Shown one piece after another: positions 6,696 through 32,118 of a stretch of 34,418 nucleotides of DNA. The stretch lies in the IMG/VR virus record IMGVR_UViG_3300030118_002504, positions 1-34,418 of that record; one strand, 5' to 3'. Under the pieces are notes generated by a model. That model searched no databases. It was not told where the DNA came from and saw only the letters and a program-made list of their open reading frames with translations. The translations under genes and the position numbers were made by a program. The stretch is from a virus. Within the stretch, counting starts at the first letter, position 1. Each line of letters begins with the position of its first letter.

Positions 6696-8222
6696 ATGGC
6701 AATTACAAATGGAGCTAGTTTGAATAGTGTACCTGCCCCACAGCAGCAAGCACTAAACACAAACTATCTTGACTTCAACACAGATATGGGTTGGGCTCAA
6801 CAATACCTGCCAGACTTAATGGAAAAAGAAGCTGAGGTTTTCGGACCAAGAACTATCTCTGGTTTCTTATCACAAGTCGGTGCAGAAGAGGCAATGACCT
6901 CAGATCAAGTTATTTGGTCAGAACAAGGAAGATTACATTTATCTTATAAAGCAGAGATAAAAACTTCTACAACAATACAAATTCAATCAGATATTGATGG
7001 TAATAATGAAGATACTACACACGGTATTTCTGGAAACTCTGAAGCTACAACTGGTATTAAGCACGGTATTAGAGTTAATGACACTGTTCTTATTGCTACA
7101 TCTGCTGGTGTAAACAGATGTGTTGTTACAGCAATGGACGGTACAGATAAAGATTTATTAACTGTACTACCTTATGATGCTGCTAACATGACTAACGGCG
7201 CTGGAGCTAGTTCAGCTGCTTTAGGCGCTACTGTTTTAGTTTATGGTTCTGAATTTGGTAAAGGGGTAAGTTATAATACTACCGCTGCTTCACCAGCTGC
7301 TACTGATTCAAGAGGAGCTAATGAACCAGACTTTAAAACTTTTAGCAATAAACCAATTATTATGAAAGATTACTACGAAGTATCTGGATCGGACGCTTCA
7401 AGAATCGGTTGGGTAGAAGTTACATCTGAACAAGGACAAGGTGGTTACTTATGGTATTTAAAAGCAGAGTCTGATACTAGAGCTAGATTTAACGATTATA
7501 TCGAAATGTCTATGCTAGAATCAGAATTAAACTTATCAGCTTCAGCTCTTGATACTAGTGATATTCTTGGTAATCCAGGTAACGGTGATAACAAAGTTGG
7601 TACTGAAGGTTTATTTTCAGCTATTACTAAAAGAGGTAATGTTACATCCGGTGTTACTGGTGTTAATGCTGCTACTGATTTAGCTGAGTTTGATCTTATA
7701 CTAGCTGAGTTTGATAAGCAAGGTGCTATTGAAGAATACATGATGTTTGTAAACAGAGCTACTAGTTTAGCTATGGACGACATGTTAGCTTCAATGAATT
7801 CTTACGGAGCTGGTGGTACTTCTTACGGAGTATTTAACAACGACGAAGATATGGCATTAAATTTAGGTTTCTCAGGTTTCCGAAGAGGTTCTTATGACTT
7901 CTACAAGTCTGACTTTAGATACTTAAATGATAAAGCTACAAGAGGTGGTATTAACGATGCTGCTGGTTCTAACGCAATTAGAGGCGTTATGATACCAGCT
8001 GGTGTTTCTACAGTTTATGACCAACAATTAGGTAAAAACTTAAAGAGACCTTTCTTGCACGTTAGATACAGAGCTTCTGCTACTGATGATAGAAGAATGA
8101 AGACTTGGACTACTGGTTCGGTTGGAGCTGCTACATCAGCGCTAGATGCAATGCAGTTACACTTCTTAACTGAAAGATGTTTAATAGTACAAGGTGCTAA
8201 TAACTTTATGTTAATGAAGTAA
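6696..8222 (+). CDS. Major capsid protein (HK97-fold type)
   Basis: The 508-residue product follows the scaffold-like gene and is closed by a strong terminator, as expected for the most highly expressed structural gene. Residues 42-88 (starting LMEKEAEVFGPRTISGFLSQ and continuing through SDQVIWSEQGRLHL) match the N-terminal region of major capsid proteins in crAss-like and marine podoviruses. Other capsid-like parts are the segment near 245-275 (GGYLWYLKAESDTRARFNDY), probably the spine helix, and the FVNRATSLAMDDM segment near 350. Between residues about 90 and 185 lies a Gly/Thr/Ala-rich beta region that may be an insertion domain on the capsid surface. No protease site for prohead maturation is evident. 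No Shine-Dalgarno precedes the ATG; the leader is tatattATGGC. Confidence 0.88.
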   Translation: MAITNGASLNSVPAPQQQALNTNYLDFNTDMGWAQQYLPDLMEKEAEVFGPRTISGFLSQVGAEEAMTSDQVIWSEQGRLHLSYKAEIKTSTTIQIQSDIDGNNEDTTHGISGNSEATTGIKHGIRVNDTVLIATSAGVNRCVVTAMDGTDKDLLTVLPYDAANMTNGAGASSAALGATVLVYGSEFGKGVSYNTTAASPAATDSRGANEPDFKTFSNKPIIMKDYYEVSGSDASRIGWVEVTSEQGQGGYLWYLKAESDTRARFNDYIEMSMLESELNLSASALDTSDILGNPGNGDNKVGTEGLFSAITKRGNVTSGVTGVNAATDLAEFDLILAEFDKQGAIEEYMMFVNRATSLAMDDMLASMNSYGAGGTSYGVFNNDEDMALNLGFSGFRRGSYDFYKSDFRYLNDKATRGGINDAAGSNAIRGVMIPAGVSTVYDQQLGKNLKRPFLHVRYRASATDDRRMKTWTTGSVGAATSALDAMQLHFLTERCLIVQGANNFMLMK

Positions 8223-10804: not shown

Positions 10805-13800
10805 ATGCCGGAAATTAAACACACATTTACAGCCGGTAAAATGAACAAAGATCTCGACGAGAGATTAGTTCCTAACGGCGAATATAGACACGCTTTAAAC
10901 GTACAGGTTAGAACTACTGATGGTGATTCTGAAGGTGTAGGTAACGCAGGTGTTGTACAAAATTTACAAGGTAATTCTCATATTAGTGATGGCGGTGATA
11001 ATAATGATGGGGCTTTTAATTCTATATCTTACGTTACGCTAGATAACGGCACTATACCTTCTACAAAGATAATTGGTAGCATAGCTGACGAAAAAAACGA
11101 TAAAGCTTATTTCTTTGCGGCAGCCCCGGATATTAGTAAAATAACAGTTAGCGACATTACTTCAGTTACTTCAACAACACAAAGAGTTTTTGTTGATAGT
11201 ATAGTAGAAGTAGACACCGTTGCGGAAACTGCTAGATCAATATTTGTAGATAGATTTGCTGTAATGGGAATAAAATCAGATGTATTTGTAGTAGAAGATG
11301 GAACTATAAATAATACACCAGGTACTTATTTAAACAATGGCGCTCTTCAATCTACACCAGCTGATGGTTATGATCAAATAACAGTAGTAGATGCTGATAG
11401 ATATAGAGTTGGTATGATTATGTTTGCTCAGAATGCTAGTAACGACCATTTACTTTTTACTGATGGGGTTCCTGGTGTAGAAATAGTAGATTTAAACTCA
11501 ACTACAAATATACTTACGTTAGCCACTCAGCAGACAAGTGATTTAGACACGGGTGCTGCTTTTAAATTTATTCATAAAGAAAGAGTTTTAGAATTTGATC
11601 AAGAAAAATTAATTACAGGTATAAATATTATTGATGATTTATTATTTTTTACTGACGGTAAAAACGAACCTAAAAAAATAAATATAAAAAGATCAAAAGC
11701 AGGAACAGAGTTTAATTTTAATCAAACTCAACTTTATGTACAAAATCCCGCTAATTTATCAGATAAAGATGATTTAATTATTATTAGTGATTTAGAAAAT
11801 GTCGTAACTTCAGATGTAAAAAAAGAACATATTACAGTAATACGAAAAGCCCCTAAGTCTGCGCCTTTTATTTTAATGAGTAAATCAGAAAGAGAAGGTG
11901 GCTCAACTGGTTTAATTAATCATCAATTTGTTAACGAAGATTTCACCCCAGCTGTTCCTACTGAGGGCTCTGGTCAATATGTTCCTTTTCCCTCAAGTAT
12001 GGTTGTTCCAGTTACCGGTGATGAGTTTATATGGACCTCAGCTAATGACGTTTTTGATCCGGTAACTATTATAGGTAAAGTACAAATTAACTTAACTACG
12101 CCGGTGCAAGGTGTTTCTCAAGTTAATGCAGATAACGAAATTATTACTACATTTAATTATTTTGTTATTTTTAGTTTTGTAGATTCAGACTTAAGTCAAG
12201 GTCAAAATCCTTCAGAGTGGGCGGTAGAACTACAACAAAAAAATCCAATATTTGAAACTAAATTTGGTAGATTTGCTTATAGATATAAATACGAAGACAA
12301 CGAATGCTCTTCTTTTTCTCCATTTTCAGAATTAGTTTTTTTACCTGGTAACTTTTCTTATACTCCAAGCAAAGGATTTAATGATGGAATGACTAATAAT
12401 ATTAGATCATTGCTTATTAAAGATTTTATACCAGATATTTCTATAAGACCGCTTGATGCCAAAGCCGTAGACATATTATGGAAAACAACTGATAACTCTA
12501 ATGTTTATATAATAAAAACAATAACAAGAGGTTTTGACTCTGAGTGGTTTGAATTTAATGATTCTGAAAATGTAAACACGGGATCACTTTCTATAAGTTC
12601 CGAAATGATACATAGAGTATTACCTTCAAATCAACTATTAAGATCATTTGACAATGTTCCTAAATCTGCATTTACTCAAGAGATTACAGCAAGCAGAGTA
12701 GTTTATGGAAATTATTTACAAGGCTATAATTTAAAATCACCAGCTGCTATATCACAAGCAATAGTTTCTTCTGCTCAATCTTTTCCTATACCACAAAAAT
12801 CTGTAAAGTCTGACAGAGAATATAAATTTGGAATCGTAATTGGAGATAAATATGGTAGAGAAACTCCTATAATAGCTTATGATTTTGAAAGTGGAGGTAG
12901 TAATCAAGGCGGTAGTATATATGTAGAAAAAAATCTTTGTAGTCTTGGTAACTCTTTCGTTGTCCAACAAAATTGGAACGGTGGCGATCCTACTTCTTTT
13001 ATGTATAATGGAAAACCTTGGATTGAATATATTAAATATTATGTAAAAGAAACATCTAATGAATATTACAATTTAGTAATGGATAGATGGTATGACGCTG
13101 GTGGTGGAAACGTATGGCTATCTTTTAATTCAGCTGATAGAAACAAAGTTGATGAAGAGACTTATCTTGTACTAAAAAACGAACACGGATTCCAACGACC
13201 TGTAAATGAAAAAGCTAAATATAAAATACTAGCTATAAGCAACGAGGCTCCAGATCATATTAAAATAAGTAAAAACGATATGGGTTTGGCTAGAATAAAT
13301 AGTGATAACATATATGGCCCAGATGATGTTCTTGATGGTGTTCCTACTTTGTTAATTAATAAAAGATCGATTAAAACTGACGATAACAGCTGGGCTGAAT
13401 TAGGTTCTAATTTAAGTGATAAATTTAAAGGTACTAAAAAAGTAAGGTTAGTAGGTAAATATACTACAGACAGTGGCGGTGAGATTGTAGCTTTTAGTCC
13501 TTTTAAAACAGTTTCTAAAATATCTACTTCAGGAAGTGAGGGTACTGTTACTTTGAAAGATACTTTTACTTTTTCAGAAGCAAATATGTTTATTAAAATA
13601 TCAAATTTACTTAACGATCCGTCAGAAATTGACGTAGCGCTAGTAGATAACTCAGGCGATCCTGATAGAATACAATATTTTATGGAACTTAGAGACGAAG
13701 TTGTTGAAAATAAACCTGAGTTTGATGGTAAGTTTTTTGTAAAAATAGAAAAAGATTCTACGTTACAAAGTAGAGTTTTAAACGAAACATCAGGTTTATA

Positions 13801-16800
13801 TAATGTGCTAGATTCTTACGAAATAGCCTATTTATCTAATGATTCTAATAACGTTTCAACTACTGGTACTTTTGCTAATAAAGCTTGGGGACTTGACGCT
13901 AGCGATGCGGCAATAGACTCTGTATTTACTTCTACTAACATTGATGATTTTGTACCTCCTTCCACTGCCGCTCCTGATGTTCAAGATTTAAATGCGCAGT
14001 TCAACCTATTTTACAATCTTGATAACGGTTCATATGCTGACATAACTGATTATATAGGTGTAAATCAAGTTCCTTTAGTTCAAGATAATATTCCAAAGTT
14101 TGGACCAGGAGATCAAACTACTACTGAAAATTTTTGGCACTGGTGGTATAGTCAAGGTGATGATTATTTAGGTATATTATCTGGAGAGCCGCTTTCTGAA
14201 AAGCCAAGAACTACTAATATATTTTTAGATGAAATACCAGCGGCTCATGATTATTATTTTAGATTTGGTGGTAATGATGTTGACGACCCTGTTAATCACT
14301 CGGCTACTACATACGTATGGGGCTTTGCACAAGACTCAATGCCTGAGCTAAGTCATGGTCCAAATGAAATAAGTAACACTTGGAGGCAAGATTTTGGCTA
14401 TGGTCTATGGGGTGCTGATTTTGACAGCGTAGCAGCTATTGGTAGCACTTGGGGTCCTCACCCTTGGTTTGATGGGCTTCAAGGTACAGGAAATTCATGG
14501 ATGCTAACTAAAAACTTTGAACCAACTGGTTTAGCTCAAGGTGCTGCAACACTGCCTAATAATATGGGCCAAATGGCTTTTTCTAGCATAGGTCAAGAAA
14601 ACGGATTTGCTCCAGGCGAAGACGCTATTTTTTATAGTAGAATGAAAACTCCTGGTACTATATTTAGGTTTGCCGCAGATCCAAATCAAATAGCTTATAG
14701 AGTGACATCTATAATTATTAATTCTGTTGATTATATTCCTGCCTATGGTGGTATTGGTGGATATTCTGTTGGAGCGTATACTATTGATCCACCTCCTCAG
14801 TACGAGGGGCCTGTAGAGATTAATTCAAAAAATTTTTCTCACGATATGATAGATGATATTTTAAATCTTAGGCATACGTTTATAACTAGATTTGTTGCTA
14901 TAGATAAAGATGGTGGCGATATAACAGGTTCTGGTGTTGATATAGATGTTTTTGATCCAAGAGGCGAGGTTGCTCATAATGGCCTTGGTAGTTTTACTAT
15001 AGAAATACTAGAAAGAGCAGTGGATGAAGAAATAGAAGATACCACTATAGTTAGTAATAATGCTTGTTGGGAAACAGAGCCAAAAGAAAGTGCCGAATTA
15101 GATATATATTATGAAGCTAGTAATTCTATACCTATAAAGTTAAACGCAGATAATATACAACTATTTACTAAAGCTTCTTCGGACTTTAATATAGCTAGTC
15201 AAGCTTTAGCTACAAGGATTACTTACAATGAAGACCTCGCTCTTTATAACACAACAGATATATTAGTACGACAAAGCAGAGCATTTGTTACAAAAAACTA
15301 CGGCGACGATGGTGTAAAAATACAACTTTACGACGCTGATAATGAAGTTTTTGCTGATGGAGACGCTGGCGTAGACTTGAATCGTCTATTAGCTATAAAT
15401 GACACAATTAAATTTAAACACGCAGACGGTACAATAGTTAGCTCTGTAATATTAGATCACTATACTGTGACTACTGTTAATGGAGTAAATATACCTATTC
15501 CTACTACTAGATTAACGCCTAGTAATATTGCAATGGTCGAAGGTAGTAATAGTTTTAATACAAATGTTACTCCAAGTATTGGTGATCAAATAATATCATC
15601 ACCTAATAATTTTTATTTTCCAAACGGTACTTTTGTGACAAATTTTAATGTTATAGTGCCAGGCTCGCTTGTAACAGTAACTCTAAATAATGCAGCTTTA
15701 CAATCAGGTTCTTTTACTAGCGGTATTGAATTTGTGCCAGTTAGTGGTATATATAAAATAGACAGAGAAGTTTGGAACTACCCAGTAGAGCTAAGATGGT
15801 TTAACTGTTATTCTTATGGCAACGGTGTAGAGTCAGATAGAATAAGAGATGATTTTAACGCACCACAAATAGACAATGGCGTTAAAGTATCTTCTACGTT
15901 TTTAGAATATGGAGAAGAAAGAATAGGTACAGGTTTAATACATTCATCTGGGCTATATAATTCTACATCAAGCGTTAACGAGCTTAATCAGTTTAACATG
16001 GCTGAAAAAATTACTAAAAGCTTAAATCCTATATATGGCTCTATACAAGCATTAAAAACTAGAGATACAGATTTAGTAGTTTTAGCAGAAGATAAAATAT
16101 TAAGAGTTTTAGCTAATAAAGACGCTTTATTTAATGCAGATGGTAATACTAATTTAACAGCAACTGACAAAGTGTTAGGCACGGCTATACCTTTTGTTGG
16201 AGACTATGGTATATCAAAGAACCCAGAATCATTAGCTGCAGATCAATATAGAATATATTTTTCTGACAAACAAAGAGGTGCTGTATTAAGATTATCACAA
16301 GATGGTTTAACACCTATATCTAATGTAGGTATGAAGTCTTATTTTAGAGAACACTTAAAACTTTGTGAAAACTTAGTTGGAACTTTTGATATAGTTAACG
16401 GTGAATACAACTTAACTTTAAATATAGCAGAACCACATCAAGTAGCTTCAGTTACGTGCCCTGATAGCGGCTGTGTTACTACACCAGCAGTAAAACCAAT
16501 AACTATTTCGTTTAATGAAGCTGGAAAAGGCTGGGTTAGTTTTAAATCTTTTGTTCCTTCATCTGGAGTTTCTGTAAATGGAAAATATTTAACGTCAAAT
16601 AATTATAAAATATATGAACATTATAGTGATGACGTTGATAGAAATACTTTTTACGAAGATAACGCTGTTGATTCTGAAATTGAAATAGTTTTTAATGACG
16701 ATCCTAGTACTGTTAAATCTTTTAAAACAATAAATTACGAAGGTACTCAAGCTGCTATAAATGAAATAACAACACATACTGATGACGATGGTAATGTTAT

Positions 16801-17401
16801 AGAATCATTTATTGGCGCTAATGATGGTGACGGTGAATACTACAATTTACAAGCAAAAACTGGCTGGTATGTAGATTTATTTAGCACTGATATGCAAGAT
16901 GGCAAAGTGTTTGAATTTATAAGTAAAGAAAATAAATGGTTTAATAAAATAAGTGGAATACAAACTGCTATAGGCAATATTGATCCTAGCGAATTATCTT
17001 TACAGGGCATAGGCTTTCCATTAGAAAATCCTGTTGACGAAGGTACTACTACTCCAACAGTGCAAACAGAAGAAGAAGTTATAGTTAGTACGCTTAATAT
17101 AAATATTAATTTTAATCCACTTGTTGGTAATGATGGTTTCTTTTTCTTTCAAGCTAGCGGTGGCCAACCTCCATACGTTTTTAATATTCAAGGGCCAAAT
17201 GGTTATAGTTCAACAAGCTCCGCGATACCAAATAACTATGGATTAAGTGGCTTTGTTTTCACTGAAGCGTTCACAACAGCTCCTGTTAATTCTAATGGTA
17301 CGGGAGGACCTGGTACTTACACGATAACAGTTACTGATAGTGACGGCGCTCAAGGTCAACTTATTACGGTAATAAATCAAATAAATTATCCACCAGCATA
17401 A
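10805..17401 (+). CDS. Giant tail nozzle/muzzle protein (P22 gp10-like stabilisation protein)
   Basis: At 2198 residues this is a very long member of a family whose P22 relative, gp10, has about 470. The N-terminus (FTAGKMNKDLDERLVPNGEY, residues 8-27, then ALNVQV) is the characteristic start of the stabilisation/muzzle proteins of crAss-like and related marine phages. The family plugs and stabilises the portal channel and forms the tail nozzle. Most of the chain is beta-rich and aromatic, with no catalytic motif that I can see. Residues about 1910-2051 contain a second recognisable part: GWVSFKSFVPSSG, then TGWYVDLFSTDMQDGKVFEF and KWFNKISG. Residues about 2099-2198 form a separate module with ASGGQPPYVFNI and GPGTYTITVTDSDGAQG, resembling SprB/PKD repeats. 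There is a Cys pair near 1885 (CPDSGC). It is head-to-tail with adaptor genes upstream and beta-rich genes downstream. Confidence 0.85.
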   Translation: MPEIKHTFTAGKMNKDLDERLVPNGEYRHALNVQVRTTDGDSEGVGNAGVVQNLQGNSHISDGGDNNDGAFNSISYVTLDNGTIPSTKIIGSIADEKNDKAYFFAAAPDISKITVSDITSVTSTTQRVFVDSIVEVDTVAETARSIFVDRFAVMGIKSDVFVVEDGTINNTPGTYLNNGALQSTPADGYDQITVVDADRYRVGMIMFAQNASNDHLLFTDGVPGVEIVDLNSTTNILTLATQQTSDLDTGAAFKFIHKERVLEFDQEKLITGINIIDDLLFFTDGKNEPKKINIKRSKAGTEFNFNQTQLYVQNPANLSDKDDLIIISDLENVVTSDVKKEHITVIRKAPKSAPFILMSKSEREGGSTGLINHQFVNEDFTPAVPTEGSGQYVPFPSSMVVPVTGDEFIWTSANDVFDPVTIIGKVQINLTTPVQGVSQVNADNEIITTFNYFVIFSFVDSDLSQGQNPSEWAVELQQKNPIFETKFGRFAYRYKYEDNECSSFSPFSELVFLPGNFSYTPSKGFNDGMTNNIRSLLIKDFIPDISIRPLDAKAVDILWKTTDNSNVYIIKTITRGFDSEWFEFNDSENVNTGSLSISSEMIHRVLPSNQLLRSFDNVPKSAFTQEITASRVVYGNYLQGYNLKSPAAISQAIVSSAQSFPIPQKSVKSDREYKFGIVIGDKYGRETPIIAYDFESGGSNQGGSIYVEKNLCSLGNSFVVQQNWNGGDPTSFMYNGKPWIEYIKYYVKETSNEYYNLVMDRWYDAGGGNVWLSFNSADRNKVDEETYLVLKNEHGFQRPVNEKAKYKILAISNEAPDHIKISKNDMGLARINSDNIYGPDDVLDGVPTLLINKRSIKTDDNSWAELGSNLSDKFKGTKKVRLVGKYTTDSGGEIVAFSPFKTVSKISTSGSEGTVTLKDTFTFSEANMFIKISNLLNDPSEIDVALVDNSGDPDRIQYFMELRDEVVENKPEFDGKFFVKIEKDSTLQSRVLNETSGLYNVLDSYEIAYLSNDSNNVSTTGTFANKAWGLDASDAAIDSVFTSTNIDDFVPPSTAAPDVQDLNAQFNLFYNLDNGSYADITDYIGVNQVPLVQDNIPKFGPGDQTTTENFWHWWYSQGDDYLGILSGEPLSEKPRTTNIFLDEIPAAHDYYFRFGGNDVDDPVNHSATTYVWGFAQDSMPELSHGPNEISNTWRQDFGYGLWGADFDSVAAIGSTWGPHPWFDGLQGTGNSWMLTKNFEPTGLAQGAATLPNNMGQMAFSSIGQENGFAPGEDAIFYSRMKTPGTIFRFAADPNQIAYRVTSIIINSVDYIPAYGGIGGYSVGAYTIDPPPQYEGPVEINSKNFSHDMIDDILNLRHTFITRFVAIDKDGGDITGSGVDIDVFDPRGEVAHNGLGSFTIEILERAVDEEIEDTTIVSNNACWETEPKESAELDIYYEASNSIPIKLNADNIQLFTKASSDFNIASQALATRITYNEDLALYNTTDILVRQSRAFVTKNYGDDGVKIQLYDADNEVFADGDAGVDLNRLLAINDTIKFKHADGTIVSSVILDHYTVTTVNGVNIPIPTTRLTPSNIAMVEGSNSFNTNVTPSIGDQIISSPNNFYFPNGTFVTNFNVIVPGSLVTVTLNNAALQSGSFTSGIEFVPVSGIYKIDREVWNYPVELRWFNCYSYGNGVESDRIRDDFNAPQIDNGVKVSSTFLEYGEERIGTGLIHSSGLYNSTSSVNELNQFNMAEKITKSLNPIYGSIQALKTRDTDLVVLAEDKILRVLANKDALFNADGNTNLTATDKVLGTAIPFVGDYGISKNPESLAADQYRIYFSDKQRGAVLRLSQDGLTPISNVGMKSYFREHLKLCENLVGTFDIVNGEYNLTLNIAEPHQVASVTCPDSGCVTTPAVKPITISFNEAGKGWVSFKSFVPSSGVSVNGKYLTSNNYKIYEHYSDDVDRNTFYEDNAVDSEIEIVFNDDPSTVKSFKTINYEGTQAAINEITTHTDDDGNVIESFIGANDGDGEYYNLQAKTGWYVDLFSTDMQDGKVFEFISKENKWFNKISGIQTAIGNIDPSELSLQGIGFPLENPVDEGTTTPTVQTEEEVIVSTLNININFNPLVGNDGFFFFQASGGQPPYVFNIQGPNGYSSTSSAIPNNYGLSGFVFTEAFTTAPVNSNGTGGPGTYTITVTDSDGAQGQLITVINQINYPPA
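17096..17398 (+). other. SprB/PKD-like domain at the muzzle protein C-terminus
   Basis: Residues about 2099-2198 of the 2198-residue protein show the beta-sandwich repeat pattern: a strand ending in SGGQPPYVF, a turn rich in Gly and Ser, then GTYTITVTDSDGAQG. SprB repeats are known mainly from large adhesins of gliding Bacteroidetes, with the form SGGxPPYxY...GTYTVTVTDxxGC. The final Cys of the usual form is replaced here. A role in contact with the cell surface or in tail-tip assembly is an inference. Confidence 0.6.
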
Positions 17402-21930: not shown

Positions 21931-24900
21931 ATGAAAAAAGAATACAAACTATCGGACGGTAGAACTAAATTTGTTTTACCAGAAGATGAAGAAACATTTT
22001 TTAAAAAATTAGAAGAAGCAGGATTAACAGCCGAGCTAGTACTAAAGCCAACTGAATATAAATTATCAGATGGTAGAATTAAAGTTGTTAAACCTGAAGA
22101 CGAAGCTAAATTTAAATATAATCTAAACAAAGCAAATCTAACAGCTGATAAAATCCTACCACCAACTGTAGAGCTTGATCCAAGCAAACAAATATCACCA
22201 GAAGTCGAGACAGACGAACAAAAAATCAATAAAAAAATAAATGAATTAAGAAGCACTACTAGAATAAATGCTGATTTAAGTGATGGTGAATCATGGGAAG
22301 GAAACTCTTCACATAATTTATTTCAATATAAAGAATTAGTATATAGTGATTTTAAAAGAGATGAATCTGGTCAATGGCAATATGTATCGCCAAAAGGAAG
22401 TGACGAAACTCCTGAGTTTAATCAAAGTGTTTTTAAAGAACTTGATTTAATAGAGTCAATGACTGCAACTCAATTAAAAAATAGAAGACTAGCTATATAC
22501 CAAACTAATTATGGTGATACTAGATTTTACGATGACTTTGTTTTTACTGGTAACGAAGATCCTAACTTTAAGTATTTTAATAAAGCAGACAACTCATATG
22601 TTTCCGGTGATGACATTGAAACTATCAACGCTTTAGATTTTATTAGAACTGGTGGGCAGGAAGGTAGTTTAAAAGCCAATGAAGCAAATCTTTCAAATGA
22701 AATAAATACATACAATGCAAATCTTTACAACAGCTCTTCTAGTAAAGATCTTGAATCTGATATACTTACAATAGATACTGATATATACATAAAAAAAAGA
22801 AAAGATAGAGTTGTAAATATTGGACAAAAAAATCATAGTCTTGACTTAAATGATCATTCTTTATGGAATAGTACTTCTGCTAGTTTTATAGAGCAAATGA
22901 AACAATATTATCCTGATGATATATTTTCTTATGAAAGAAGCTTTCCATTTCATCCAACCGTTAATAAAGAAAAAGTTACTATAACTCACAAGCAGACTGG
23001 TGAATCTATAACTATAGATGTTAATATAGATGAAGATCACGAATATAAAAAATATATAAAACCAAAACTACTTGGAGAAATACCAGCGCCTGTAATATTG
23101 GGACTAAGTACTACAAAAGAAAAAATACAATATTACTACAATAGATCTATTAATGAAAATAGTGAAAATTTATACGAGTTTTTAAATAGAGTTGTTACAG
23201 AAGAAGAAAGAACTAGACCAAGAACTTCATTAAACTCTAATATTATAGCAATAGAAAATGAAATGTTAGAAGTAAATCCTGATACAGGAGAGCAAGGGGC
23301 TTTGTATGTTTCAAAAGAAGAAGAGCAAAATGCTATTAGAAAATATCAAGAAGTAGCTGTTGATGAATCAGGTGAAGAAATTTTAGATGAAAACGGAAAC
23401 CAAACTTTTATTAGAAAAAAAGATTTATTTACTAGCGTAACTGGAGAAGATTATGACATAAGTAATAAAGTAAGTTTTTCTATACCACACTCTAATATAC
23501 TACAACAAGCTGAAACTATTTTATTAGAACAAATGAAGCTTACTGGAACGTACCCAACTACTGAAGAAGTAAAAGATCTTGCTTACAAACTTTTAATAAA
23601 CAAAGTTAAAACAGATTTAAATGACGAGAAAATGACAAACTATGCTGATAGCATAGACGGTGGTTTATTTTCAAATGGTCAAATAAGAAATATACAAAGT
23701 GCTTTTAGAATTAAAAATAAAAAAACAGCTGAAGAGTTTGCTGAAATTAATTTAAAGGTAAATCAAAAAAGAAAAGAACTTGTAAATAGACTTGGTACTC
23801 CAGATAAGCCTAAAAATGAATTAAGTTATGTACAAGATATACAGGCTTTAATACAAGACCCTGATTTTAAATTTAAGATAAGACCAGGCGAACAGTACTA
23901 TGTTTTTGATGAAATAGATAAAAAAATACCTAAAAGAATTTGGGATAAATACACGTCTAGCTACGCTATAATTGATCAGCTTTCGTTAGAGTACGATGAT
24001 TTAATGGATAGCTATGTAGACAAAATAGAGGACTTACAAGATTCAGAATATAAGTTTAATCTTATTATGAGAAACTATAATGATCTTGACAAGTTTGTTC
24101 GTGGGAATATATTAGCTGGGTTTGAAAACATTGCAAGTGGACTTACTTTTGCTTTATCAAAAAAAGCACAATACACATTTGACTCATTAACTGGTGTAAA
24201 AGAAGGTGAAGGAAAAGTTAATGAAAGACTTAACGAAAGGATGGTTGCATTTAACTATGTTAAAAATTATGCTAAACAAAAGTATCAAAAAGATATTGAG
24301 TTTAGTAATAAGACTGAGAGCTTTACTACTTTTGGTAAATTTTTAGCACAGGATTGGGGAGCACAAATACCTATATTTACTTCTATTATGATGGGCCCTT
24401 TTGGTATGTATGCAGTGGCTGCTTCTAGCGGTACAGACAATTATGCCAGAATGTTAGAGCAAGAAGAAATAACTGGCGAAAAATCATCAGAAAGTAAAAA
24501 GTTTTTTACCAGCCTTGCGTATGGCGCCGGTGAATATGTATTTGACAGAATGTTAACTTCAAAAGTTTTAAATAGAGCATGGAGAGGTTTTTATCGTGGA
24601 TCTGGAACTTCACTTATAAAAGGACAAGGTAGATTAGGTCTTAAAGGTGCTAAGGACTTTTTTAGAAATAATTATAAAGGCATACTGAAAAGTGGTGCTA
24701 TGGAGTTGAGTGCTGAAACTTTTACTACAATGTTTCAAAATATAATAACTGGTAGACCTGTTATGGAAAATGTAGATCACTCTGCTTTTTCTGGAGCTAT
24801 GTTTGGTTTAACTTTAGGTGGTGCTCCTGTATTTAAAGGAACATTAATGAACGCTCTTTCGGAATCAAAGAATGTTGTAGAATATAATAATAATATTGAT

Positions 24901-27900
24901 GAAATAAAACAACAGCAAAAAGAACTAGATGAATATCTAGGAAATAAAGAGGCTGATCCTAATTCTACGTACGTAAAAGAAACTAAAAAAAGAATAAAAG
25001 AACTTGGTAATAAAAATCAAAAAATTTTAAATGACATAGAGCTTAAAATAAAAAATAAAGGCATGTCAGCTAAGTTTACACAAACTTTCTTAAAAAGGTT
25101 TGAGCTTGAGCAGTTTTTAAAACAAAAAGCTAGAGAAACACATAAAGATTATAAAAAAGGTAAAATAAATAAAAAACAAAGAGATCTTACTTTAAAATCT
25201 TTAAAAAATCAATTTAACCAAAATTCAGCTATCATGGAGATAATGAAAACTGGAAAAAATTTTGGTAGTAAGTTTATTGGTTTTGTTAGTAGTAATGATC
25301 AAGTTGATATAGATAGAAAAGAAAAATTATTTCAAGATGCTGAAAGTAGATTAAAAAATGGAACTGGATTATTTGGAATTAATAATAAAAAAGTAGAAAA
25401 TCCTACAGAAGAACAAATACAAGAAGAAGCTAGATTAGAATATAATGTTCAAGAGATACGAAAAGATTTAAAAAATAGAAAAAAAAATAATTTAGGTGAG
25501 CATTTTAAAAGTTACAAAACCGTAGATCAAGCTATACAAGAAATAAATAAACTTGATATACCTGAAGCTACAAAAGCTCGGCTTATAGATAGTATACAAA
25601 AAGGTGATTACGGTAGTAATATTATTTTAAAAGATAAAGACGGTAATAGAACAGGCTATATAAGTTTTCAAGTAGAAGAAAACATGGCTAAAGACGATAG
25701 GCTTGAAACAAGAACCCACGAAATAGGTCATGAAACTTTAACAGAGTTGATATCAGAGTACTCTGGAGATTTTAAAGATATGGCTGAAGAAGTGCTAGAA
25801 TATATTAGAGAGTTAAACCCATTATTATATAATGAATTAGTTATGTTAACAAACTGGGGTACTAGCAAGCAAATGAAACCAGATGAAGTTATTGTTACAT
25901 TTTTTGAATTAATAGCAGAAGGTAAAAACTTTAATTTAAAAAAGAAAGAAAACAAAACGTTAATACCTTTATTAGGTTGGTACTTTAATACAAAGACAAA
26001 GAATAGAACAGACATAGACCTTGGTTTAGAAGGTGAAACAGATATAATTAACTTCTTAACACAGCTAGCTAAAAAAATAAAAAAAGGAGAAGTTAATGAT
26101 AAGTTTTTAGAAACTATTAAAAAAACTAAAATAGTTATAGAGTCTAGAAAAAAAGCTGATGAAAGAAAAAAGCAAAGAAAAAAAGAAAAACAAGATGCAT
26201 CAGATATAAAACAATCAGCTAAAGCAGATGGTTTAGTTAATAACTTAATGGTAAATCCAAAGACTAGAAGATTTTATACTGATGATGAGTGGAAAGAAGA
26301 AGGTTCTAAAAGAGCTTTAAAAGAATTAAGAGAAAACACTTGGTTAGATGGCTTGATTAGAGCTAAGTATAAAGTTAGACCTATACCAGAAACTTGGGCT
26401 GAAGACGTTAAAAACTCCCCTGAGTTTAAAAATATGATTGATAGATTTAATAGAGGTTTATGGGGAACTAATAATCAAAATGATAGTTTATTTGGATATA
26501 TACAAGGTCAACTAAGATTTAGAGCTGATGACGTATATAATTTATTTCAAAAGGGTAAAGCACCTGTTGGTACAAAAAGTATTGACGAACAAATGCAAAG
26601 CGGGTCTATTGTTCAGATACAAGACTCTTCTTATAATTTAGATAAACAAACAGACTCCATAGATTATTTTGATCAAAGAACACATGGCCAAAAAACTGAA
26701 ACTAAATCTAATGAATCTACATTTAGAAAAGAAATAGGTATAAGCGATACGCGTAAATCAGAAGTTTTTGCAAAAGTTAAAACTGCTATATTAACATCTG
26801 GTGATTTTAGAAACTCAAAAGATTTTTTAAAGTTATTTGAACAAACATCAGCTAACTCTTTATATAGCGTAATGGAAGAAATATTTAAAGATAGACCTAC
26901 TATTATAAAATATAGAAAAGCTATTTTAGATTCTATACCTTTAAGTAAGTTGATACAAATGCAAAAACAATTACCTGATAAAATATTTGTACAAAGTTAC
27001 GGTAGGGCCACTAACAGAACTATATTATCTGATTTTGTTTACGGAAGAAACGAGTCTGGTAGAAATCCAAATAAAAAAGAATTACTACCACCAGAAATAT
27101 TAAATGACAGCCCTATAAGTAAAAAGAAAAGAGCACAAGGGGTACCTGTTTACGAAAGATTAGAAACCACAACAGAGCAATGGGAAAATTATATTAATGC
27201 TCAACCTATAAATCCTAGAACAGGTAAAAAATCTGGTACTAGAGGAAACAATAAAATAAAAATATTATCTGAGTCGGCTATAGCTATAGCAAAAGATGCT
27301 ACACCAGAGACATTAACAAAAGACTTTGCTAAAAAATATTTAGACATAACTGGTATTATAGGCGTAACTCCAGATCAAGTTGTTAAAGAAATAAATGAAA
27401 TACTTGAAAGACCAGATGATTTAAAATTTAGTGAAAAGTCTACTATTGAAATAGACGAGTTTTTAAATGTAAATAACTACTTAGATATTGATGCTAACGG
27501 TAAAAATGTTGTCTTAAATATGAACAAAGTTGGCGACGCTTTTGATTTAAAAACTAACGAAGGTAGAAAAAAGTTTAGAACTTTTATTAAAGACGTGTTA
27601 CTTCCTATAATGCCTAGAGAATTTTGGTTTGGTGATTCTAGTTTTATTGGTACAGATGAGATTCAAAAGCAAATAACTTTAATGGGTGATAAGTTTTATA
27701 AACAATACAACTTAGATATTAAAGTAGCTAAACCTTTGATTGATCAAGCAATAAAAGAACCAGGTAAGAAAAACATTAATATATATAATGTAATAAGGCA
27801 ATTAAACATACAACATTGGGGGACTGTATTTACCCCTGAGCATAGACCTTATGGTAAATTTTCTATGTCAGAAGTAACACCCGGAGTTCTTAAAAATCCT

Positions 27901-30900
27901 AAAGAGGCTAGAGCATATAATGAATTTAGACATTCATTAAGAGATTTAAGAAATTTACCTGACGAAAACTTTGGACCACCTGTAGAAGGTATATCAGATT
28001 TTAAAGTATCAGCTTATTCTTCTATATTTAAAGATAAACAAACTATAGAAAAAGGTATAGAAGATGGTAGTATAGATAGATGGAACGATAAAGTTACTAA
28101 GATTCATGAAGAAATGTGGTCTAGATTTAATCAAGTAATTAAAGAAAACCGTGAAAATGCTAGAGGTATAGCTACATATCTTGGCTTAGTAGCTAACGAT
28201 ACTGGACATTGGCATAAGTTAGGTGCTAGGTTTATAGGTTATTCTGAAACAATAACAGGTAAGAGATTTGAATATGAACACGCTATGCCGGCAACAGCCG
28301 CATACTTGTATTTATTAGATTCAGCTTTAAAATCTAATGTTAATTTTGAAGCATCGTATAAATTTTTAATGAAAAACTATACGCTAATAGCTCTAGATAA
28401 AGCTATGGATAATAAACTAAGAAGTGCTAAAACAGAAAATGGTTTTAGTTTACAAAGAAGAATGAATGACAACTTTAGTGTTATAGATGGTAATTGGTGG
28501 GAAAGATATTTTAATGCTATAGTGGTAGCTGTAGACGGAATAGGTATACCGCCATCTTCTTTAATAGGCCTTAACGGTAAAACATTTGAACAAATATATA
28601 AAATAAAAGCTGATGGTAAACCAACCGGTCTTAGATCTAGTGAAAAAATAAAAACAGATCAAAACATAGCAGACGCTGATGTTATGTCTGTAAAAAATAG
28701 CTCTAAACCTAGAGGTATGTCAACATTTGATTTTGATGATACATTAGGTTTTACTAAGTCAGGCGTAAGAGCAACAGTACCAAATCCAGACGGAACGCCT
28801 AAGCCAAATCGTAAAGTTGTATTTTTAGCTGGTGGTGCTGGTAGTGGTAAAGGAAATGTCATAAGACAGCTTGGTTTAGAAAGTATGGGCTTTAAAATAG
28901 TTAACTCTGATATATCGTTAGAGTGGTTAAAGAAAAACTCAGGGTTACCTGCTGACATGCGAGACTTAACTAAAGAACAGAGAAGTACATTAGGTAAACT
29001 AGGTGCTCAAGCTAGAAAAATAGCTAGACGTAAAATGATGAAGTATCAAGGTAATGCCAACGGTGTTATAGTAGATGGCACTGGAGGTAGTGTTAAATCA
29101 ATGCAGAAGCTCGTAGATGAGTTTAAATCTAAAGGGTATGATGTTAGTATGTTATTCGTAGATACTTCATTAGATGTAGCCTTAGAGCGTAATAGAGCAA
29201 GAAAGGAAAGATCATTGCTAGATATTATAGTTAAACGTAATCACGAAGCTGTACAAAATAATAAACCTACGTTTAAAGAGATGTTTGGTAATAGATTTAT
29301 GGAAGTCAATACAGACAACTTAACAATGAAGAGCCCTATGCCAGGTAAGTTAGTTCGTCAAATGGAAGACTTTGTTTCTAGTTATGAAAAGCTTAGATTA
29401 GATGCTGCTGAGTTTGCAGAGCAAGGAGATGCTATACTAGAACAAGGTGGCGAGTTTGATTTCTCAGAGTTTAATGATGTTGTTGACGGAACACCAGGCC
29501 CGTTGTTAGATAAAGCTAAAGAGCGAGCTGCTAAGTTTGGTACTAAGGACATGTTTGTTTTAACTGCTAGACCTCAGCAATCAGCTAAAGCTATACACGA
29601 GTTTTTAAAATCACAAGGATTAAATATACCTATAAAAAATATTACTGGTTTAGGTAATAGCACTGGTGATGCTAAAGCGAGATGGTTTTTACAAAAGTTT
29701 GCAGAAGGATATAATGATATGTATTTTGTTGATGACGCTTTACAAAACGTTAAAGCTGTTAAACAAGTTTTAGATCAATTAGATATTAAATCAGATGTGG
29801 TACAAGCTAAAATAAAGTTTAGTGAAAAAGCAAGTATAGAATTTAACGAAATACTAGAACGTAAAAAAGGAGTTGCAGCAGATAAAATATTTTCTTCAGC
29901 AGAAGCTAGAAAGCTAGCCTCACAAACAAACATTAAAAGATTTTTAAAAAGTCTTTATATACCACCGTCGGCAGAAGATTTTAAAGGTTTATTATACTAT
30001 TTTATAACGACAGGTAAGCAAGGAGAGGCTGACTTTCAATATCTTGTTGATAACTTAGTAACACCTTTTGGTAAAGGTATTAGAGCTTGGAATACTTACA
30101 AGCAAACAATGGTTGAGGATTTTAAAAATTTAAAAAAGAAGCATAAAATAAAACTCAATAATAATGTTCCATTAACTGGCTTAACTATTGATACAGCTGT
30201 TCGTGTTTATTTATGGAACAAAAATGGATTTGAAGTAGAAGGTATATCAGATAAAATAAAAATAAGATTAATAGACTACGTTAATAATAATCCTGAAATA
30301 AGAGCGTTTGCTGATAGTTTATCTCTTATAACTAAAAGAAAAGATGGTTACGTAGAACCTTCAGAAACTTGGATGCTTGAAAGCATATCAACTGATTTAA
30401 GAAACATTGTTGAGAAAATAGGTAGACAAGAGTTTTTACATGAATTTATACATAATAAAAATATAATATTTAGCCAAGAAAATATTAACAAGATAAGAGC
30501 TATATATGGAAATGATTTCACAAGCGCTTTATTAGATTCTTTATTTCGTATGGAAAATGGAGGTAATAGACCTAGTGGACAAAGTAGAATTGTATCTGGC
30601 TTTACTAGTTGGATTAACGCTTCTATTGGCTCTATTATGTTTTTTAATACAAGATCAGCTTTACTTCAAACCTTGTCTACTGTTAACTTTATAAACTGGA
30701 GTGATAATAATATATTTAGAGCTTCGTCTGCGTGGGCTAATCAACCACAGTTTTGGAAAGACTTTGTTATGTTGTTTAATTCACCAATGTTAAAACAAAG
30801 AAGATCTGGCTTACAAACAGACGTGTCTGCGTCTGAGTTAACAAAAACTTTTAGAGAAGGTAGAGCTACACCTATTGGTGTTATTAGATACTTATTACAA

Positions 30901-32118
30901 AAAGGTTTCTTGCCAACGCAGTTGGCTGATAGTTTTGCTATAGCTTTTGGTGGCGCTAGTTTTTATAGAAACAGATATAAAAGCTTAATTAAAAAAGGCA
31001 TGAACCCAGCTCAAGCTCACGATCAAGCGATGTTAGACTTTCAACAAGTAGCAGAAGAAACACAACAGTCGTCAAGAGAAGATTTAATATCTCAACAACA
31101 AGCTAGTGTATTAGGTAGATTTATATTAGCTTTTCAAAACGTAACAATGCAGTACGGTAGATTAACTAAAAAATCGTTAGTAGATTTAATGATGGGTAGA
31201 GGTGACTTTAAAACTAATGTATCTAAAATATTATACTATGGAGCTGTGCAAAATATTATATTTGCCTCTTTGCAAACAGCTTTAGCTTTCTTATTATTTG
31301 GAGATGAAGAAGAAGAATTAATAGATAATAAAACAGAAAGAGCTTTAAATGGAGCGCTTGACTCTTTCTTGCGTGGTACAGGTATATATGGAGCTTTAGT
31401 TTCTACTCTTAAAAATACTATTATACAATGGAACAGACAGCAAGAGGCTGGCTTTGGTAAAGATAGACCAGAAAAAATAGGACTTGAAATAATGAATTTA
31501 TCTCCACCAATTGGTAGTAAACTTAGAAAAATATACAATGCTTACTATGCAGAGAAATACAACAAAGGCGTTTCTGAAGAATTAGGACTTAGAATAGAAA
31601 ATCCAGAAATATCAAAATGGGCTAATATCGTTGAAGGATTAACTAATGTTCCTTTAGCAAGGTTACAAAATAAAGCTAACAACTTAGAAGAGGCGTTAAC
31701 GGGTGGTCATGACACTTGGAAAAGAGTGGCGTTAACTCTTGGCTGGAGTAGATGGGATCTTGGTATTGAAGATGAAGAATTAGAAACAGCTAAAGAAGTA
31801 GCAAAAGAAAAAAATATAGAAAAAAGAAAACAAGAAAAAATAGAACAGAAAAAGAAAGAAGAAAAAGAGTTAAAAGAAAAAGGTTATAAAAGTATTAGGT
31901 GTTCTGGAACAAAGTCAAATGGTAAGAGATGTAGCATAATGTCACAGCCGACTAAAGAAAAAACTTTTAAATGTTTTCATCATAGAGAATTTACAGATGG
32001 CATGGATAGAGATGGCGATGGTATTAAAGAATACAGGTGTACAGCTAAAACTAGAGCCGGTAAAAGATGCAAGAATAAAACAGAGAATAAAAACAAGAGA
32101 TGTTATGCTCACCAATAA
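21931..32118 (+). CDS. Giant polyvalent internal virion protein (peptidase, HAD + kinase, zinc knuckles)
   Basis: This 3395-residue chain is the third gene of the ejection block and is most likely packaged in the capsid and injected. Domains in order: a tandem 38-residue repeat (4-79); long helical and charged regions; and a hydrophobic patch near 813-835 (IPIFTSIMMGPFGMYAVAA). An HEIGH zinc-peptidase motif follows (H1263, E1264, H1267), with possible third ligands in DEVIVTFFE (E1319, E1326). A HAD phosphatase motif I (FDFDDT, D2267/D2269) comes next, then a P-loop kinase (GGAGSGKG, K2307) and HAD motifs II-IV (T2545, K2582, D2601/D2602). A helical C-terminal third has a hydrophobic segment near 3108-3124. 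Two zinc-knuckle-like modules end the chain (3324-3351 and 3370-3394). Proteins that join peptidase, nucleotide-active and other domains in one injected chain are known as phage polyvalent proteins. I see no RNA-polymerase motif. The alternative, that it is a tape-measure protein, fits poorly with the podovirus-like set of genes. The start is the first ATG after the previous gene. Confidence 0.82.
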   Translation: MKKEYKLSDGRTKFVLPEDEETFFKKLEEAGLTAELVLKPTEYKLSDGRIKVVKPEDEAKFKYNLNKANLTADKILPPTVELDPSKQISPEVETDEQKINKKINELRSTTRINADLSDGESWEGNSSHNLFQYKELVYSDFKRDESGQWQYVSPKGSDETPEFNQSVFKELDLIESMTATQLKNRRLAIYQTNYGDTRFYDDFVFTGNEDPNFKYFNKADNSYVSGDDIETINALDFIRTGGQEGSLKANEANLSNEINTYNANLYNSSSSKDLESDILTIDTDIYIKKRKDRVVNIGQKNHSLDLNDHSLWNSTSASFIEQMKQYYPDDIFSYERSFPFHPTVNKEKVTITHKQTGESITIDVNIDEDHEYKKYIKPKLLGEIPAPVILGLSTTKEKIQYYYNRSINENSENLYEFLNRVVTEEERTRPRTSLNSNIIAIENEMLEVNPDTGEQGALYVSKEEEQNAIRKYQEVAVDESGEEILDENGNQTFIRKKDLFTSVTGEDYDISNKVSFSIPHSNILQQAETILLEQMKLTGTYPTTEEVKDLAYKLLINKVKTDLNDEKMTNYADSIDGGLFSNGQIRNIQSAFRIKNKKTAEEFAEINLKVNQKRKELVNRLGTPDKPKNELSYVQDIQALIQDPDFKFKIRPGEQYYVFDEIDKKIPKRIWDKYTSSYAIIDQLSLEYDDLMDSYVDKIEDLQDSEYKFNLIMRNYNDLDKFVRGNILAGFENIASGLTFALSKKAQYTFDSLTGVKEGEGKVNERLNERMVAFNYVKNYAKQKYQKDIEFSNKTESFTTFGKFLAQDWGAQIPIFTSIMMGPFGMYAVAASSGTDNYARMLEQEEITGEKSSESKKFFTSLAYGAGEYVFDRMLTSKVLNRAWRGFYRGSGTSLIKGQGRLGLKGAKDFFRNNYKGILKSGAMELSAETFTTMFQNIITGRPVMENVDHSAFSGAMFGLTLGGAPVFKGTLMNALSESKNVVEYNNNIDEIKQQQKELDEYLGNKEADPNSTYVKETKKRIKELGNKNQKILNDIELKIKNKGMSAKFTQTFLKRFELEQFLKQKARETHKDYKKGKINKKQRDLTLKSLKNQFNQNSAIMEIMKTGKNFGSKFIGFVSSNDQVDIDRKEKLFQDAESRLKNGTGLFGINNKKVENPTEEQIQEEARLEYNVQEIRKDLKNRKKNNLGEHFKSYKTVDQAIQEINKLDIPEATKARLIDSIQKGDYGSNIILKDKDGNRTGYISFQVEENMAKDDRLETRTHEIGHETLTELISEYSGDFKDMAEEVLEYIRELNPLLYNELVMLTNWGTSKQMKPDEVIVTFFELIAEGKNFNLKKKENKTLIPLLGWYFNTKTKNRTDIDLGLEGETDIINFLTQLAKKIKKGEVNDKFLETIKKTKIVIESRKKADERKKQRKKEKQDASDIKQSAKADGLVNNLMVNPKTRRFYTDDEWKEEGSKRALKELRENTWLDGLIRAKYKVRPIPETWAEDVKNSPEFKNMIDRFNRGLWGTNNQNDSLFGYIQGQLRFRADDVYNLFQKGKAPVGTKSIDEQMQSGSIVQIQDSSYNLDKQTDSIDYFDQRTHGQKTETKSNESTFRKEIGISDTRKSEVFAKVKTAILTSGDFRNSKDFLKLFEQTSANSLYSVMEEIFKDRPTIIKYRKAILDSIPLSKLIQMQKQLPDKIFVQSYGRATNRTILSDFVYGRNESGRNPNKKELLPPEILNDSPISKKKRAQGVPVYERLETTTEQWENYINAQPINPRTGKKSGTRGNNKIKILSESAIAIAKDATPETLTKDFAKKYLDITGIIGVTPDQVVKEINEILERPDDLKFSEKSTIEIDEFLNVNNYLDIDANGKNVVLNMNKVGDAFDLKTNEGRKKFRTFIKDVLLPIMPREFWFGDSSFIGTDEIQKQITLMGDKFYKQYNLDIKVAKPLIDQAIKEPGKKNINIYNVIRQLNIQHWGTVFTPEHRPYGKFSMSEVTPGVLKNPKEARAYNEFRHSLRDLRNLPDENFGPPVEGISDFKVSAYSSIFKDKQTIEKGIEDGSIDRWNDKVTKIHEEMWSRFNQVIKENRENARGIATYLGLVANDTGHWHKLGARFIGYSETITGKRFEYEHAMPATAAYLYLLDSALKSNVNFEASYKFLMKNYTLIALDKAMDNKLRSAKTENGFSLQRRMNDNFSVIDGNWWERYFNAIVVAVDGIGIPPSSLIGLNGKTFEQIYKIKADGKPTGLRSSEKIKTDQNIADADVMSVKNSSKPRGMSTFDFDDTLGFTKSGVRATVPNPDGTPKPNRKVVFLAGGAGSGKGNVIRQLGLESMGFKIVNSDISLEWLKKNSGLPADMRDLTKEQRSTLGKLGAQARKIARRKMMKYQGNANGVIVDGTGGSVKSMQKLVDEFKSKGYDVSMLFVDTSLDVALERNRARKERSLLDIIVKRNHEAVQNNKPTFKEMFGNRFMEVNTDNLTMKSPMPGKLVRQMEDFVSSYEKLRLDAAEFAEQGDAILEQGGEFDFSEFNDVVDGTPGPLLDKAKERAAKFGTKDMFVLTARPQQSAKAIHEFLKSQGLNIPIKNITGLGNSTGDAKARWFLQKFAEGYNDMYFVDDALQNVKAVKQVLDQLDIKSDVVQAKIKFSEKASIEFNEILERKKGVAADKIFSSAEARKLASQTNIKRFLKSLYIPPSAEDFKGLLYYFITTGKQGEADFQYLVDNLVTPFGKGIRAWNTYKQTMVEDFKNLKKKHKIKLNNNVPLTGLTIDTAVRVYLWNKNGFEVEGISDKIKIRLIDYVNNNPEIRAFADSLSLITKRKDGYVEPSETWMLESISTDLRNIVEKIGRQEFLHEFIHNKNIIFSQENINKIRAIYGNDFTSALLDSLFRMENGGNRPSGQSRIVSGFTSWINASIGSIMFFNTRSALLQTLSTVNFINWSDNNIFRASSAWANQPQFWKDFVMLFNSPMLKQRRSGLQTDVSASELTKTFREGRATPIGVIRYLLQKGFLPTQLADSFAIAFGGASFYRNRYKSLIKKGMNPAQAHDQAMLDFQQVAEETQQSSREDLISQQQASVLGRFILAFQNVTMQYGRLTKKSLVDLMMGRGDFKTNVSKILYYGAVQNIIFASLQTALAFLLFGDEEEELIDNKTERALNGALDSFLRGTGIYGALVSTLKNTIIQWNRQQEAGFGKDRPEKIGLEIMNLSPPIGSKLRKIYNAYYAEKYNKGVSEELGLRIENPEISKWANIVEGLTNVPLARLQNKANNLEEALTGGHDTWKRVALTLGWSRWDLGIEDEELETAKEVAKEKNIEKRKQEKIEQKKKEEKELKEKGYKSIRCSGTKSNGKRCSIMSQPTKEKTFKCFHHREFTDGMDRDGDGIKEYRCTAKTRAGKRCKNKTENKNKRCYAHQ
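21940..22167. repeat. Tandem 38-residue repeat at the N-terminus of the giant protein
   Basis: Residues 4-41 and 42-79 align along their whole length: EYKLSDGR, then PEDE, F, L, LTA and a closing PT occur at equal positions. The DNA copies (21940-22053 and 22054-22167) have diverged while the protein pattern is kept. This suggests selection for a small binding module. Confidence 0.85.
25687..25920 (+). other. Zinc metallopeptidase motif inside the giant protein
   Basis: The sequence THEIGHETL (residues 1262-1270) is a standard HExxH zinc site with a catalytic Glu1264. It is preceded by a strand and acidic loop and followed by a helix containing DEVIVTFFELIAE (1318-1330), where a Glu could be the third ligand. 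Phage structural peptidases of this kind cut internal proteins or help cross the cell wall. The target here is unknown. Confidence 0.6.
28720..29820 (+). other. HAD phosphatase with an inserted P-loop kinase, inside the giant protein
   Basis: HAD motif I lies at residues 2266-2272 (FDFDDTL). A complete small-kinase pattern follows: Walker A at 2301-2309, VIVDGTGG with D2382, and an Arg-rich lid ERNRARKER at 2419-2427. The rest of the HAD then resumes: FVLTARP with T2545, GDAKARWF with K2582 and MYFVDDAL with D2601/D2602. T4 polynucleotide kinase-phosphatase combines the same two folds, but side by side. Whether the substrate is RNA or DNA ends or a nucleotide-sugar, as for zeta-type kinases, cannot be told from the sequence. 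Confidence 0.68.
31900..32115 (+). other. Two zinc-knuckle-like Cys3His modules at the giant protein C-terminus
   Basis: Module one has C3324-x9-C3334, then C3348-x2-H3351. Module two has C3370-x9-C3380-x10-C3391-x2-H3394 and ends one residue before the stop. The sequence between them (DRDGDGIKE, 3359-3367) looks like a calcium-binding loop. Short modules of the form RCxxxTxxGxRCxxx...CxxH are known in bacterial and phage proteins; their ligand is unknown. Confidence 0.7.

Follow-up and report, generated by a model that had tools for sequence, protein, structure and literature searches.

A complete P-loop kinase at the cap site of a HAD phosphatase in a megaprotein of a crAss-like phage

Can a whole enzyme take the place of the cap domain of another enzyme, and what would such a protein do for the phage that encodes it? 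The question is raised by a megaprotein of 3395 amino acids, encoded by a single open reading frame (21931-32118; this frame, the parts of the module and the muzzle-like gene below lie on the plus strand) in the IMG/VR virus record IMGVR_UViG_3300030118_002504. The window is the whole stretch of DNA that was analysed, with a length of 34,418 nucleotides. A sequence-only reading had proposed that motif I of a HAD phosphatase is separated here from motifs II-IV by a complete P-loop kinase, and all residue numbers that it gave (FDFDD at 2266-2270, K2307, D2382, the lid, T2545, K2582 and D2601/D2602) are correct. The HAD plus kinase module comprises residues 2262-2625 (28714-29805). Its N-terminal HAD piece (residues 2262-2284; 28714-28782), delimited by the AlphaFold2 model and by alignment with uninterrupted HAD relatives, contains strand beta-1 with motif I (D2267xD2269xT2271) and the first strand of the flap hairpin. 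The kinase insert follows (residues 2290-2484; 28798-29382), as judged by Pfam and by fold matches, with the Walker A motif GGAGSGKG (residues 2301-2308, including K2307; 28831-28854). The C-terminal HAD piece, delimited in the same way as the first (residues 2485-2625; 29383-29805), starts with the return strand of the flap hairpin and continues with the remaining Rossmann-like core. Motif reading and conservation place motif II in VLTARP (T2545 and R2547; 29557-29574), motif III at K2582 (29674-29676) and motif IV at D2601 and D2602 (29731-29736). In Pfam searches with the megaprotein the kinase alone scored above the cut-offs (AAA_33, 3.9e-10, 40.6 bits; Zeta_toxin, 3.6e-9, 36.8 bits against a cut-off of 22.3 bits). 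The HAD half stayed below them although all HAD motifs are present, and the protein outside the kinase gave no match above cut-off, the named polyvalent-associated (LPD) domains included.

The AlphaFold2 model of the nested module was built from 43 related sequences and reached a pLDDT of 85.6 and a pTM of 0.68. In model numbering (protein residue = model residue + 2257), a strand at 5-10 with motif I at its end is followed by a strand at 22-27, the kinase at 33-227, a strand at 228-233, a helix at 235-247 and the HAD core up to a strand at 363-368. FDFDD at 2266-2270 belongs to the later HAD domain in this model. An uninterrupted HAD from a related contig (L065), also modelled with AlphaFold2 (pLDDT 84.5), has its flap strands at 21-25 and 31-35 with a five-residue turn between them, and these correspond to strands 22-27 and 228-233 of the nested model. 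Models with and without the insert, together with the alignment, hence place the kinase where the turn of the flap beta-hairpin would be, which is the C1-cap site. C1-capped HAD enzymes bear their cap in the flap-hairpin turn after motif I, and the caps known at this site are small domains of helical or mixed type. Here the insert likewise lies between the two flap strands downstream of motif I, but it is itself an enzyme. The features of the HAD superfamily come together in one Rossmann-like fold, with DxDx[TV] on beta-1, a T/S in motif II, a lysine in motif III and a DD pair in motif IV. The insert shows those of a P-loop kinase of the AAA_33/zeta class, namely Walker A, a catalytic aspartate, lid arginines and Pfam scores above cut-off. 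Residues 2262-2625 are almost certainly a single HAD phosphatase with a whole P-loop kinase in its flap hairpin. A literature search returned no description of a kinase that occupies the cap position of a HAD enzyme, which does not prove that none exists.

The split of motif I from motifs II-IV is borne out by the model and also by a natural series of relatives. A scan of IMG/VR yielded 234 relatives, the best 80 of these were taken further, and a second scan was added. The combined scans contain 60 nested and 94 uninterrupted forms. These represent 145 distinct sequences, since some contigs enter the count twice, and every one lies in an open frame of more than 1200 amino acids. Motifs I and IV are 332 residues apart in the nested relatives (338 in two of these roughly 60 marine phage contigs), while the distance in the uninterrupted relatives is 132-135 residues, at the same site in an equally large protein. 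The alignment of both forms is continuous over the junction, where PNPDG, the kinase and RLDAEEF in the nested protein stand against APDGTKGKLNATEF in the uninterrupted one. Because the layout recurs in about 60 related contigs, it is not a product of chance. Two contigs (L061 and L062) show a tandem form, in which the kinase comes after an uninterrupted HAD within one protein. In most relatives the HAD is present and the kinase is missing, and thus the pairing is not obligatory; the kinase was absent from all 16 plain-HAD records of 55-71 kb, records that may be incomplete. Searches by kinase patterns did not find the nested form in cellular genomes. Among cellular genomes the uninterrupted HAD was confined to ten contigs, all in metagenome-assembled genomes that represent several unrelated phyla, and these may be stray phage contigs that were binned there.

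Both halves are conserved as though active. T2545, R2547 and K2582 of the HAD and K2307, D2327, D2382, R2420, R2424 and R2427 of the kinase do not vary in any of the 56 distinct nested sequences. The aspartates of motifs I and IV were part of the selection pattern, hence their invariance is not independent evidence. Against seven relatives, dN/dS is about 0.05-0.2 in both halves, that is, purifying selection. The residue at the +1 position of the P-loop is a glycine in 24 of the 56 sequences. It has been considered that the kinase could be a regulatory or structural cap without catalysis of its own, as its position at the C1-cap site and this glycine might suggest, but the invariant lysine, aspartates and lid arginines, the low dN/dS and the existence of stand-alone kinase relatives in other phages make this very improbable.

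The HAD half is nearest to the phosphatases of the T4 Pnkp type, by fold and profile similarity only. For the uninterrupted HAD model the best solved structure was the 3'-phosphatase of T4 Pnkp (5uj0; Z 13.6 over 126 residues, 2.3 A), followed by Pnkp1 of the Pnkp1/Rnl/Hen1 complex (4xrp; Z 13.0), with the remaining HADs at 11.7 or less; Z values within 1 of each other are ties, and the step from the Pnkp phosphatases to the next HADs is modest. Fifteen of 20 uninterrupted HADs matched phrog_415 (best E 9e-5), which the phosphatase half of T4 PseT matches as well (3e-24). A direct sequence link was also sought, but hhalign aligned the HAD profile with T4 PseT just over the motif I stretch, which is too thin, and the connection to Pnkp is therefore founded on folds and PHROG profiles. 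PDB sequence searches gave no significant match for the HAD.

The kinase half points in the same direction, with one distinct difference. Its closest fold is the kinase of Clostridium thermocellum Pnkp (4gp7; Z 17.6 over 166 residues, 16% identical), followed by seryl-tRNA kinase (Z 16.2), zeta toxin (14.7) and T4 Pnk (14.7), and it matches phrog_505 (7.7e-7), the PHROG of T4 PseT itself. Equivalents of K15, D35, D85 and R126 of T4 Pnk are kept. By alignment, D2327 stands in the Asp35 column, D2382 of the DGTG motif within IVDGTGG (29074-29085) in that of Asp85, and R2424 in that of Arg126, the last within the arginine-rich lid R2420-R2427 (RNRAR at 2420-2424; 29188-29211). The wording DGTG is as zeta-like as it is Pnk-like. 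In T4 Pnk we take Asp35 to be catalytic and Arg38 of the DxxR motif to be the arginine that binds the acceptor phosphate. In the megaprotein the Arg38 column is occupied by L2330 (D2327 to L2330; 28909-28920), a leucine in 56 of 56 nested sequences. Among the wider relatives from T4-like marine phages this column holds Phe, Tyr or Leu and, where readable, never Arg. With an invariant leucine in place of the DxxR arginine, 5'-OH polynucleotide kinase activity is thus only a possible one.

The analogy to polynucleotide kinase-phosphatase that had been drawn from the sequence stands in part. The folds of both halves speak for it, while the missing DxxR arginine and the many relatives that possess the HAD without the kinase speak against it. 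T4 Pnkp (PseT) likewise combines both folds in one protein, provides the closest solved structure for the HAD half and shares the four kinase residues. However, its kinase lies N-terminal to the HAD rather than nested in the flap, and neither a host protein of 3395 amino acids nor a phosphatase that often occurs without a kinase has a counterpart there. Consecutive domains were seen only in the two tandem contigs, and there the phosphatase comes first. Because the DxxR arginine is missing and the domains are not consecutive, we do not file the protein as a Pnkp. Pnkp1 of the bacterial Pnkp1/Rnl/Hen1 RNA repair system also consists of a kinase and a HAD-type phosphatase, but in sequential order, and no Rnl or Hen1 partner was identified here. 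In Clostridium thermocellum Pnkp the phosphatase is a metallophosphoesterase and not a HAD. What is new is the arrangement of known folds, which is Pnkp-like and not a member of the Pnkp family.

By this analogy it is possible, and little short of an even chance, that the pair works like a polynucleotide kinase-phosphatase in the processing of ends. The best explanation as a whole, which we offer tentatively, is an active nested HAD and kinase that heal ends in a Pnkp-like manner and are delivered by the virion. The HAD, with D2267 as nucleophile, D2269 as acid/base, T2545, R2547 and K2582 at the phosphate and D2601/D2602 at the magnesium ion, would remove a terminal phosphate, probably the 3' one. 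The kinase, with K2307, D2327, D2382 and the lid arginines, would phosphorylate a hydroxyl close by, probably a 5'-OH, with the gamma-phosphate of ATP. By analogy to T4, 3'-phosphate/5'-OH ends would be turned into 3'-OH/5'-phosphate ends, and a ligase would then seal the break. Placed like a cap over the HAD active site, the kinase might work on the same substrate or gate it. It folds independently, however, and can be omitted or placed behind the HAD. The protein that hosts the module, being part of a virion block, would probably be packaged and delivered into the cell. A stricter version appears quite improbable as a whole. In it the kinase is a working catalytic cap that closes over the HAD active site, so that removal and addition of a phosphate take place on one nucleic acid end within the same cleft, and the pre-made enzyme is brought in with the phage genome and mends DNA or tRNA cut by host defences before any phage gene is expressed.

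A serious alternative, although in our view a rather unlikely one, is that the insertion is just tolerated: the HAD (a nucleotidase or end-phosphatase) and the kinase would both be active on unrelated substrates, the flap loop would accept inserts, and the megaprotein would be a delivery vehicle for shuffled domains. The history of the insert bears on this. In a HAD tree calculated without the insert the distribution of nested and plain forms requires at least three changes, and the tree is silent on gain versus loss. The kinase is an optional module that has been gained or lost repeatedly, or the parts have recombined. Such a history, the frequent HAD without a kinase and the presence of the same kinase family in T4-like marine phages, by itself or in other polyproteins, all fit a tolerated insertion. 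In the kinase tree, however, the tandem copies branch within the nested kinases (with that of contig L059), so that the nested layout gave rise to the tandem one and the kinase was kept with the HAD despite the change. That the kinase adjoins the HAD even where it is not nested, and that each half independently points to Pnkp-type enzymes, argues for a shared task.

Less probable still, and in our judgement unlikely, is a small-molecule kinase of the zeta type. It would phosphorylate a nucleotide sugar such as UDP-GlcNAc, and in this way weaken wall synthesis or alter pools at entry, and the HAD would reverse or limit the reaction or share the pool. Likeness to the zeta and PezT toxins, which are UDP-GlcNAc kinases, is evident in the Zeta_toxin score well above the gathering score, the xGTG motif, the zeta fold match and the lack of DxxR. 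Zeta-like kinases have been reported in polyvalent proteins of phages and conjugative elements and were proposed to weaken the wall (PMC5512222). Yet AAA_33 scores at least as well as Zeta_toxin, the Pnkp kinase fold is matched better than the zeta fold, and by fold the HAD half is nearest to phosphatases of 3' ends. The kinase here is also fused into a phosphatase, unlike the toxins, and a HAD that is common without the kinase would not be a mere antidote.

Delivery by the virion has to be judged separately, and gene position makes it somewhat probable that the megaprotein is packaged and enters the cell. According to PHROGs, the window contains the virion block of a crAss-like phage with terminase, portal and several structural proteins. 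A crAss muzzle-like protein is encoded at 10805-17401 (PF25729, 8e-7), and the product of 6696-8222 is similar to structural proteins from phages of Flavobacterium and Cellulophaga. Mass spectrometry of crAss001 identified as virion cargo very large proteins whose genes follow that of the muzzle (PMC10172136). The megaprotein shares a stretch of 356 residues with a protein of Tenacibaculum phage Gundel_1 that is annotated as structural (23% identity, E 1e-5; a weak match). The position in the virion block, the crAss001 cargo and the Gundel_1 match render packaging plausible. Like the polyvalent or ejected megaproteins of phages (Iyer et al. 2017; crAss001 cargo), it is a very large multi-domain protein of the structural block, but it gives no match above cut-off to the named Pfam polyvalent-associated domains.

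When T4 grows on prr hosts, tRNA is repaired by PseT together with RNA ligase (T4 record note). A gene for an ATP-dependent ligase is present in eight of eight nested records of 59 kb or more, and in seven of 16 plain-HAD records of 55 kb or more, which may be incomplete. As proof of a repair pathway with the kinase and the HAD the ligase is weak, since about half of the plain-HAD records carry it too and it looks like a small DNA ligase. For the latter reason DNA nicks and tRNA would be equally likely targets.

Bifunctional proteins are rarely built by setting a whole enzyme into the cap position of a second one. Related phages that have the phosphatase with, without or next to the kinase are natural controls for the effect of nesting, and the series also allows one to ask whether crAss-like phages carry end-repair enzymes into the cell.

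Some further observations concern the kinase family outside this module. The stand-alone kinase of phage Melnitz is encoded about 100 bases upstream of a gene for a HAD protein from the 5'-nucleotidase (NT5C) family (L096, 3977-5273), and judged by this neighbourhood the pairing of kinase and HAD may be recurrent. A marine phage polyprotein of 1296 amino acids (L336, 33-3920) combines the same kinase family with a cytidylyltransferase-like domain and, by eye, a possible ADP-ribosyltransferase stretch. An RNA-ligase-like C-terminal domain considered there (KxDG, LE, EGxVF) found no support from Pfam, PHROGs, hhalign or PDB searches. The homologues from T4-like marine phages (L194-L261 and L273-L352) share [x]xEG[VLI][NDY]DPxIFKA directly before the P-loop; [L/I]xE-G precedes the kinase in 33 of 34 distinct homologues, and a looser form in 79 of 80. 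Prohead proteases have a motif that is cut after Glu (PMC9026906, PMC5694885). The conserved stretch resembles such a cleavage site or a capsid-targeting site and gives a hint of packaging, although it is possibly just part of the kinase domain, because EG is also conserved inside larger proteins.

The megaprotein itself contains two HExxH motifs without a Pfam match, HEIGH at residue 1263 (25717-25731) and HEFIH at 2837 (30439-30453), and the former could mark a zinc peptidase domain. At the C-terminus (31900-32115) there are two Cys/His-rich repeats of the C..GxxC...CxxH type, which are likely zinc-binding. At the N-terminus (21937-22167) a repeat of roughly 38 amino acids (EYKLSDGR...) is seen twice by eye.
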